NCBI GenBank assembly: GCA_026397035.1
Contig: JAPLVQ010000105.1
Coordinates: 1 to 15,928 of the forward strand
Source of the DNA: Candidatus Iainarchaeum sp.
Lineage (GTDB): Archaea; Iainarchaeota; Iainarchaeia; Iainarchaeales; JAAZKV01
Reading direction: 5' to 3'
DNA length: 15,928 nucleotides
Shown here: in pieces, positions 6,160-9,393 of the stretch
How the letters are laid out: the number at the start of each line of letters is the position of its first letter
Position numbering within the stretch: the stretch's first letter is position 1
Translations under genes and position numbers: made by a program
Notes under the pieces: model-generated
What the model was told of the DNA's origin: nothing
The model's database searches: none
The model's input: the letters and a program-made list of their open reading frames with translations, nothing else

Positions 6160-7107
6160 TTATTTTCTTTTGTCGCGTAATTCTCTTCTAATCCGTTTTC
6201 TCTGGTTTTGTTGGGTTCTTGTTTTGAAATTAATTATAACAAATCCTTTGATGCTTGTGTTGTGTCTTTCGCCTACGGTCGCGCTTAGTCCAAAAAGCAT
6301 TCTTCCTTTGTTTGTTGGTTTTATTAAATACATGTCAGCAAACCATTTTTTGTTTTCTGGTAAATTTATTCCGAATCCTGCGGTGTATTTGCCTAAATTA
6401 ATTCCCGCTCGTCCTAGTGCGTGTTCGAGTCCGTTCGCGCCTATTCTTATTGTTGGTGTGTTGTCAAAGTATCCTTTTGTGCCGTAACTTATTTCTGGGC
6501 TAGGGAGTCTATATTTCCCAAATTCTGTTCCGAGTGAAAACCGATTTTTTTCTCCGCCAGCTTGTAGGTGTGCTTCAAAGCTTAATGGAGTTTTTTGTTG
6601 CATTAGAATTAATCCGTAATCGCTTCCGCTTAAGTTTCCTTTTCCCATTTGCGGGCTTAAATATCCAATATCGGCAAGGAACCCTTCAGGCAGTTTTACT
6701 CTTTGTGCGATTCCTATTCTTACTGCGTCGGGTGTCGTTCCTTGTGGGTATTTTCTTTCTGCAAGAATCACAGGCCCGTTGTTTGTCTGGCTCACAATTG
6801 GAAGTTTATAAGCAATTCTAAAATGGTCAAACCCGTTTTTTGACTTGTCAAAATCATGGCCGTGCATGTAAGTAGCTCTTGCGTCTTCTACTGTTGCCCA
6901 TCTTGGCGGCATTGGGGCTGGTTCTATTCCGCCTAGCGCCGCTCCTTTTGCTGTTGGTATAATCATCATTGCGGCGAGTGCTATTGCTCGCACTGCTTTT
7001 TTGCTCGGGTTAAATAAATGTGTGTTAAGGGATTTTTGCCCCAGTGAATTTATTCTTGGGATGGGCTTTCTTTCTGGAAAGTTTCTCTTGAATTGACTTT
7101 TTTGCAT
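6160..7107 (-). CDS. secreted beta-rich protein, beta-barrel-like, unknown function
   Basis: 315 residues. A basic N-terminal stretch of about 36 residues precedes a hydrophobic segment (38-53, AVRAIALAAMMIIP) and a possible signal-peptidase site near TAKGAA (52-57). From residue 95 to 294 the sequence is a succession of short alternating polar/non-polar strands separated by Gly/Asn/Lys turns, for example AVRIGIAQRVKL, FEAHLQAGGEKNRFSLGTEF, IRIGANGL, YTAGFGINL and IKGFVIINF. This resembles an outer-membrane-type beta barrel or another up-and-down beta structure. It ends in a very basic tail (295-315, RKRIRRELRDKRK). I recognise no family. A leaderless TATA box (about 7128-7137) supports the ATG. 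Being beta-barrel-like in an archaeon is unusual. The barrel reading is inference from the strand pattern. Confidence 0.65.
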   Translation of the reverse strand: MQKSQFKRNFPERKPIPRINSLGQKSLNTHLFNPSKKAVRAIALAAMMIIPTAKGAALGGIEPAPMPPRWATVEDARATYMHGHDFDKSKNGFDHFRIAYKLPIVSQTNNGPVILAERKYPQGTTPDAVRIGIAQRVKLPEGFLADIGYLSPQMGKGNLSGSDYGLILMQQKTPLSFEAHLQAGGEKNRFSLGTEFGKYRLPSPEISYGTKGYFDNTPTIRIGANGLEHALGRAGINLGKYTAGFGINLPENKKWFADMYLIKPTNKGRMLFGLSATVGERHNTSIKGFVIINFKTRTQQNQRKRIRRELRDKRK

Positions 7108-7169: not shown

Positions 7170-7177
7170 TTTTAATA
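7170..7177 (+). promoter_or_regulatory. candidate TATA box of the cdc48-like gene
   Basis: TTTTAATA, the best plus-strand TATA match upstream of the ATPase gene. It would give a leader of about 65 nt, with a GGTG (7255-7258) five bases before the ATG at 7264 as a weak ribosome-binding site. Confidence 0.3.
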
Positions 7178-7263
7178 CTTTTTGGAGAGGTTATTTCAGA
7201 GAGTGCGGTAGTATTTCGTGTAGTTGCTGTTGCATTAGTAAGAAGAGTGTTTTTGGTGTTGTT

Positions 7264-9393
7264 ATGCCTTCGGGTGCTGTTGGTACTAATTCAGAGGATA
7301 GAAGACCTGAAATAATTTTACAGGTGCAGGATCCTGACCCGACTCATGTTGGGCGAAATATTGTTACGCTTGATAAGGAAACTAAATCTATTTTGGGAAT
7401 AACTTCAGGGGATATTGTTCAGATTGAGGGTAGTAAAAAAACCGCGGCGATTGTTTGGCCTGCAAGGACTGATGATGAAGGAAAGAAAATTATTCGAATG
7501 GATTCGTTCATCAGGCATAATGCGGGCGTTGGTTTGAATGAGAAAGTTAAGGTAATAAAAATTATTCCTCAAGAGGGCAAGAAAGTAATTCTAGCCCCGA
7601 TTGAAGAGGTTAGGATTATTGCGTCGGGTTATGACAGGATTTTAAAAAAGAGTTTTCTTGGCAGGCCTTTGACTGTTGGAGATAATGTTTGGATTAGTGT
7701 TTTTGGTTCGGGTTTTATTTATCGTGTTGTTGATACTGCTCCAAGAGGGATAGTTAAAGTTACTGACGCTACGCAGTTTTCGCTTAAAGAGAAGCCGATT
7801 AAAGATTCGCTTGCGGGTGTTCCTAAAGTTGCTTATGAGGATATTGGGGGTCTTGGCGAGCAGGTTAAAAAAGTCAGGGAAATGGTTGAACTCCCGATGA
7901 AGCATCCTGAATTATTTCAAAAACTTGGTATTGTTCCTCCTAAAGGAATTTTATTGTTTGGTCCTCCGGGGACAGGAAAAACTTTATTAGCAAAAGCTGT
8001 GGCGAATGAAGCGCAGGTTCATTTTATTTCAATTTCTGCTCCGGAGATAATGGGTAAGTTTGTTGGGGAAGCAGAAGAGAGGGTAAGAAATATTTTCAAG
8101 GATGCGCAGGAGAATGCTCCTTCAATTATTTTTATTGACGAGATTGATTCTATTGCTCCAAAGAGGGATGAGGTTGTGGGAGAAGTTGAAAGGAGAGTTG
8201 TTGCCCAGCTTCTCTCGCTAATGGATGGTCTTGAGGGTAGAGGGGAAGTAATTGTAATGGCGGCAACTAATAGAGTTAATTCAATTGATGAAGCCTTGAG
8301 AAGGCCAGGAAGGTTTGACAGGGAAATTGAGTTTACTGTGCCTGATAAGCGTGCGCGTGAGCAGATTTTGAGTATTCATACAAGAGGAATGCCTTTGGAA
8401 GTTGAGGATAAGGGTAAAGTTGATTTGGCTTTTTTTGCTTCCATCACACATGGTTTTGTTGGCGCGGATTTGCAGGCTTTGACTAAGGAAGCGGCGATGA
8501 AGGCTTTGAGGAGGTATTTGCCGCAGATTGATTTGGAAGAAGAGACTATTCCTCCTGAGATTCTTGAGAAATTAAAAATTACTCAGCAGGATTTTTCTGA
8601 AGGTTTGAAGGATGTTCAGCCTAGCGCGTTACGCGAAGTAGCGATTGAGGTTCCTAATGTTAAGTGGGATGCTATTGGTGCGCTTGAATCAGTGAAGCAG
8701 GAATTAAAGCAGGCTGTTGAGTGGCCGATAAAAAATGCTGTTGCGACTGAGTCTGAAGCGAATTTTATTTCAATTAAGGGCCCTGAGCTTTTGAGTATGT
8801 GGATTGGGGAGGGAGAACGGGGTGTTAGAAAGATTTTTAAAAAAGCTCGGCAGGTTTCTCCGTGCATAGTTTTTTTTGACGAGCTTGATGCTGTTGCTCC
8901 AAGAAGGGGAGCGGAGATGGGGAATGGAGCTACTGAGAGAATGGTGAATCAGCTCTTGACTGAACTTGACGGGGTAGAGGCGTTGACTGATGTGGTTTTT
9001 ATGGCTGCTACAAATCGTCCTGATTTAATTGATTCTGCATTGCTTCGTCCAGGCAGGATTGATAAATTAATTATGGTTTCTGCGCCTGATGAATCTGCAA
9101 GGGAAGCGATTCTTAAGGTTCACACAAAAAATATTAATTTGGATAAGAATGTTTCAATAAAGATTCTTGCCCAGCAGACAAAAGGTTTTAGTGGAGCTGA
9201 TCTTGCGGGTCTTGTGAGGGAAGCGGCTCTTTTAGTATTAAGCCAGAATAATATGAAGCCTGCCCCGATTGCGATGAAGCATTTTGAAGAGGTTTTGAGT
9301 AAGATGCATCCTTCAATTGATGAGGAATCCGAAAAAGCGTACGGCGAGTTTAAGGATAAAGCTCTTGATTTTAGACCGAGCTATGTCGGGTAA
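7264..9393 (+). CDS. cdc48: Cdc48/VAT-type AAA ATPase lacking the D2 Walker A
   Basis: 709 residues of the Cdc48/p97/VAT unfoldase family, a hexameric ring that extracts and unfolds proteins for degradation. The N-terminal double-psi barrel (about 15-95) and second N subdomain precede AAA domain D1, which is intact: Walker A GPPGTGKT (233-240), Walker B IIFIDEID (288-295). D2 keeps Walker B VFFDELD (536-542), sensor AATNRPD and LLRPGRID with Arg595 and Arg598. But between EWPIK (486-490) and [10 protein letters not shown] (from 492) about 30 residues that normally contain [13 protein letters not shown] are missing, in frame. D2 therefore should not bind ATP normally. The start is the ATG before [10 protein letters not shown]; the open frame to 7093 overlaps the divergent gene and is not homologous. 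The deletion may be genuine or an assembly error. Confidence 0.93.

Follow-up and report, generated by a model that had tools for sequence, protein, structure and literature searches.

A 30-codon gap at the D2 P-loop of an archaeal Cdc48 gene is very probably an assembly artefact at an intragenic repeat

The Cdc48 gene and its gap

The stretch of DNA analyzed here (15,928 bases, hereafter ‘the window’) is an entire contig (C5) of the draft genome G000, which comprises 188 contigs and 1.29 Mb, with a completeness of 77% and a contamination estimate of 2.58%. It contains a Cdc48/VAT gene that begins at an ATG at position 7264, inside a listed open reading frame opening at a TTG at 7093, and the product has 709 amino acids as printed. 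The protein has the CDC48 N-terminal domains and two AAA modules that characterize this family, and it scored 923.7 bits against the TIGR01243 profile, above the curated cut-off of 802.65. The relevant features are as follows.

7264..9393, + strand: Cdc48/VAT gene (Pfam CDC48_N, CDC48_2 and two AAA domains; TIGR01243 score)
7936..8004, + strand: D1 P-loop core, the copy that is present (23 residues; in genus-mates, D2 repeats its DNA to a greater or lesser degree)
8736..8737, + strand: junction at which 30 codons of the relatives are missing (codon alignment)
8737..9390, + strand: rest of D2, in which Walker B, sensor 1 and the arginine fingers are intact (motif and column comparison)

The original prediction for this gene was an in-frame loss of the D2 Walker A motif, amounting to about 30 residues or 90-odd bases. 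The DNA at 8700-8760 reads GAG TGG CCG ATA AAA AAT, directly followed by GCT GTT GCG ACT GAG, in a single open frame. Alignment with 11 genomes, four of the same genus and seven others, showed that exactly 30 codons, including the D2 P-loop, are missing in frame between 8736 and 8737. The printed protein therefore has no D2 Walker A motif, but it is a Cdc48 by descent nonetheless. As had also been predicted, the Walker A motif of D1 is present and normal, and D2 retains Walker B (FFDE at 537-540) and motifs that we take to be sensor 1 and the arginine fingers. The prediction erred, on the other hand, in seeing a departure from KWVGESE nearby in D2: close relatives carry SMWVGEGERG or SMWVGEAERG, and the window differs from the former solely by V to I, which is close to the genus norm.

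We also examined the edges of the gap. The left flank ends with AAT where the segment of the relatives ends with a Lys codon, and the right flank starts with GCT where that segment starts with Pro (CCN). When the flanks of each genus-mate were compared with its own segment, three of the four shared 0 bases; in the exception, G002, 4 A’s are shared between flank and segment, and the residue there is Lys. No direct repeat or microhomology is thus expected at the breakpoints, so that replication slippage at the short A-rich stretch of the junction, once suggested as the site of the deletion, was rejected. Two other routes were also rejected. Recombination between D1 and D2 would take out everything that separates the repeats, about 800 bp, and not just the P-loop. 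Imprecise loss of an intein does not agree with the HSPs of some relatives, which break at about query residue 513 (near the D2 pore loop) and in D1, not at the deletion.

Relatives and the retained part of D2

The relatives compared here are Diapherotrites, and those of the same genus are G001, G002, G003 and G004. The D2 Walker A was present in 119 of 119 other proteins (from the best 120 of 7998 scored). The motif G..G.GK[ST] was found at the D2 position in 109 of 109 relatives’ loci by best match, where several loci represent one genome fetched twice and the best match of a truncated locus may be D1. In a search of the phylum (87 genomes, 86 with a match), no match from another genome crossed the junction among the matches listed: they start no earlier than query residue 51, the junction lying between residues 53 and 54, and two genomes or more, G048 and G061 among them, do not appear in that list. 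No examined relative shares the loss, and the four same-genus and seven other genomes are intact. In addition, titles and abstract openings in the literature yielded no loss of the D2 P-loop in an archaeal Cdc48. In a database of 5.8 billion proteins, the window protein is alone in its cluster, which comes from a single contig. Among the best 120 of 7998 proteins scored, its nearest neighbour shares 88% identity, and the best eight other matches share 84-88%. A second complete Cdc48 was not found in the 77% complete G000 assembly.

The comparison also brought up unusual Cdc48 proteins in the phylum. Some of approximately 790 aa (in L027 and L028, and proteins such as P0026, P0027 and P0033) are enlarged where the D1 core meets the D1 lid, by approximately 60-70 residues that follow query residue 378. 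In G010, G024, G034, G041, G044 and G048, the Cdc48 open frames span 1072-1722 aa and their matches are broken in D1 and/or D2, and the Cdc48 P0107 contains a long insert; these interruptions suggest inteins.

Next, we asked how far the retained D2 appears constrained. Where 19 close relatives are invariant, the window differs at a single column in each part of the protein, out of 110 columns in D2 downstream of the junction, 211 in D1 and 114 in the N part. With an 85% threshold, the changed columns are 6 of 158, 2 of 239 and 2 of 134, respectively, and the D2 figure equals the highest among nine close relatives (range 1-6). The window has a D2/D1 terminal branch ratio of 1.66; the values printed for 19 relatives run from 0.18 to 4.46, and the whole tree gives 1.43. 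Relaxed selection on D2 is not clearly seen in either the column changes or the branch ratios, a pattern that would fit an artefact or a young deletion.

AlphaFold models were built from shallow alignments of 44 sequences for the window and 43 for P0003, an intact relative. The mean pLDDT and pTM were 79.1 and 0.46 for the former and 80.7 and 0.57 for the latter. In the window model, D2 has neither strand beta1 (E501-505 in P0003) nor the beginning of alpha1, and helix 475-490 is followed at once by 493-497. Strand beta1 is a central strand of AAA+ domains. A D2 that lacks both would be more than a Walker A mutant, and it therefore seems doubtful that the printed sequence could form a folded D2 ring devoid of hydrolysis. 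A naturally inactive AAA+ ring would be expected to keep its fold and to be shared by descent; here beta1 is absent in the model and the loss is found in no examined relative.

Faulty joins in the assembly and the P-loop repeat

To see how often genes are broken in G000, open reading frames of G003 were compared by tblastn with 81 stretches of G000, 67 of them readable. The 151 queries with at least 60% identity come from both strands, some antisense, and do not equal 151 genes. We found 17 HSP splits, all frame-changing, of which 10 are free of N’s. The other seven lie at N runs, where G000 is 13-100 bp longer than G003. The N-free splits comprise net losses of 127, 91, 37, 23, 14 and 13 bp and net gains of 1 (probably spurious), 7 and 16 bp, together with a 1037-bp intein-like insert. 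The 127-bp loss falls in uvrA, the 37-bp loss in uvrC, the 91-bp loss in a 350-aa gene and the 23-, 14- and 13-bp losses in three further genes; uvrA and uvrC lie on one contig (L192, G000:C35), each with its N-free frame-breaking loss, at about 2055 and 6990. In L135 (G000:C18, about 379-991), the proteasome beta gene psmB lacks approximately 140 bp that span its catalytic residue, the Thr at the mature N terminus, and its frame is broken; psmB is intact in G003 and G001. This event is outside the set of 17 splits, probably because its short left match fell below the E-value limit in the larger set. NCBIfam identified the G003 copies as UvrA, UvrC and proteasome beta (the last just under the cut-off). 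Queries from G004 gave three splits in 32, a loss of 37 bp and gains of 4 and 16 bp, the 16-bp gain being a site already counted with G003 queries.

Frame-changing events appear as splits in such a search and in-frame events as gaps, and both were counted. The in-frame gaps in G000 comprise the 90 bp of cdc48 and three others, of 51, 24 and 24 bp, which fall in variable segments. Splits and gaps together give nine N-free losses of 140, 127, 91, 90, 37, 37, 23, 14 and 13 bp, those of 91 and 13 bp in weakly aligned stretches, and only that of cdc48 is in frame. An earlier survey by reciprocal matches of open reading frames (75 pairs, 45 at 60% identity or more) had found Cdc48 as the sole loss in a conserved segment; it sees frame-breaking losses poorly and was superseded by tblastn. 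As for the intein-like insert (L198, G000:C45, about 7176-8214), it interrupts the Walker A of what we take to be an Orc1/Cdc6-like gene, beginning CIAGDS after YGKTG and ending HN before TGKTS, and a frame break near its C-terminal end is probably another assembly fault.

As controls, G003 queries gave 0 splits in 40 on G004, and G004 queries gave one in 45 on G003. Queries from G000 gave three in 171 on G003, two at the N runs of G000 itself and a third (query L252) unexplained. In these two control genomes, similar frame-breaking joins are almost absent. G003 is itself scaffolded, with 23 N runs of exactly 100 each. The N runs of G000 number 44 and measure 1-98 bp, and none of them lies in the window. 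Seven of the 44 share a word of at least 8 bases at both edges (3.5% at random sites), and three of these words are 17-19 bp. Given these duplicated edges, we read the N runs as scaffold gaps with wrong size estimates. Together with the splits, they indicate that this assembly joins contig ends wrongly, apparently sometimes without N’s. The other losses in G000 thus point to faulty joins; they do not extend to the P-loop repeat as the cause.

That repeat was seen when the D1 and D2 P-loop cores of each genus-mate were compared. They agree at 68 of 69 nucleotides in G003, with an exact word of 57 bp, and at 64 of 69 in G001 (48 bp), and in both genomes they encode the same 23 residues; the figures are 58 of 69 (23 bp) in G004 and 56 of 69 (25 bp) in G002. 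Across 61 of the 109 loci, duplicates included, identical residues have identical codons in 647 of 1150 cases in the core versus 1432 of 2978 nearby (20 of 22 versus 18 of 40 in G003). Exact D1/D2 words of at least 31 bases occur in 7 of the 61 loci and of at least 21 bases in 20, again including duplicates. In L002/L040 and L026/L043, and less so in L015 and L091, the D1 and D2 P-loop DNA of one Cdc48 is near identical at synonymous sites too, which resembles the outcome of gene conversion.

Short-read assembly graphs break or fork at repeats of this length. The segment missing from D2 is the counterpart of this repeat with short flanks, and the kept copy is in D1. Therefore, if the window species resembles G003 and G001, the repeat ties the general assembly fault to 8736/8737. 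A long repeat that could make contigs break there is seen, however, in two of four genus-mates, and the D2 copy of the window species is absent from the sequence. A search of the readable stretches of G000 (67 of 81, the other 14 being short contigs) did not turn up the missing piece at another place.

Origin of the gap

The original prediction allowed either a real allele whose D2 is structural or a deletion made in assembly. The latter is supported, by way of the P-loop repeat and faulty joins and not the A-rich stretch; the former is disfavoured because the loss is unshared among the relatives examined, D2 looks constrained, and beta1 and the start of alpha1 are removed too. We consider it very probable that the gap arose in assembly at the D1/D2 P-loop repeat and that the D2 of the organism is ordinary, with its P-loop. 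Most likely, the deletion is present in the sequence and absent from the organism. Since the P-loop DNA of D1 and D2 is near identical in the genus (in two of four relatives), the assembler may have placed the repeated piece once, in D1. A scaffolding or gap-closing step that put the gap at about 0 would then have joined the contig ends beside the D2 copy, dropping 90 bp and leaving no N’s. This bridging is suggested by the other faulty joins of G000. The reading frame would have survived by chance, since one length in three is a multiple of three, and the true protein would work as an ordinary VAT/Cdc48 unfoldase. Several observations speak against an artefact. No k-mer-sized repeat occurs at the two edges of the junction, and because N’s are also absent, the join presupposes scaffolding or gap closing, not a simple collapse of the repeat. 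Moreover, this deletion respects codon boundaries and keeps the frame, which sets it apart from the other losses in G000. Two of the four genus-mates have only 23-25 exact D1/D2 bases, words of at least 31 bases occur in only 7 of 61 loci, and the D2 column count at the 85% threshold is as high as in any of the nine relatives.

If instead a strain or population had recently lost beta1, the P-loop and the alpha1 start of D2 in frame, leaving D1 as the sole motor, then the continuous open frame, the codon-exact boundaries, the lack of N’s in the window and the single copy found in the assembly would all fit, and nature would offer a test of Cdc48 working with D1 alone. However, the relatives examined lack the deletion, G000 is full of faulty joins, the seemingly constrained residues of D2 would require it to be young, and the modelled D2 has lost a strand, whereas natural dead rings keep their fold. 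In an excerpt of a study of VAT (PMC5423775), moreover, mutating one ATPase domain also alters hydrolysis by the other. We therefore regard a real deletion as unlikely. It is more doubtful still, and highly unlikely, that a living Diapherotrites archaeon combines a D1-only Cdc48 with a broken 20S proteasome beta subunit because its Cdc48-proteasome pathway is being lost. A chimera could also yield such a junction, whether it united molecules from two related strains or arose as a product of amplification, and N-free joins with no demonstrated repeat do occur elsewhere in G000. Yet both sides of the junction match P0003 well (93% and 88%), with no clear sign of two sources, and the contamination estimate is 2.58%, so that a chimera of this kind seems very improbable. 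An assembly artefact at the P-loop repeat would mean that near-identical P-loops in one gene can mimic a clean in-frame ‘allele’ in a draft genome.

Compared with the archaeal double-ring AAA+ unfoldase Cdc48/VAT (TIGR01243), the window protein shares the N-domains, an intact D1 and the Walker B, sensor and arginine fingers of D2, and differs by the 30 missing codons, which in D2 encode beta1, the P-loop and the first part of alpha1. Pex1/Pex6 and NSF are type II AAA+ proteins in which one ring is degenerate and its fold is kept. The printed protein resembles them in having one ring without a working Walker A, whereas here the strand is lost too. Finally, spurious pseudogenes caused by assembly error in bacterial genomes, as outlined in an excerpt of PMC11017572, are similar to the present case in that conserved genes are broken in one assembly and intact in relatives; the Cdc48 loss differs from them in that it stays in frame, and so resembles an allele.
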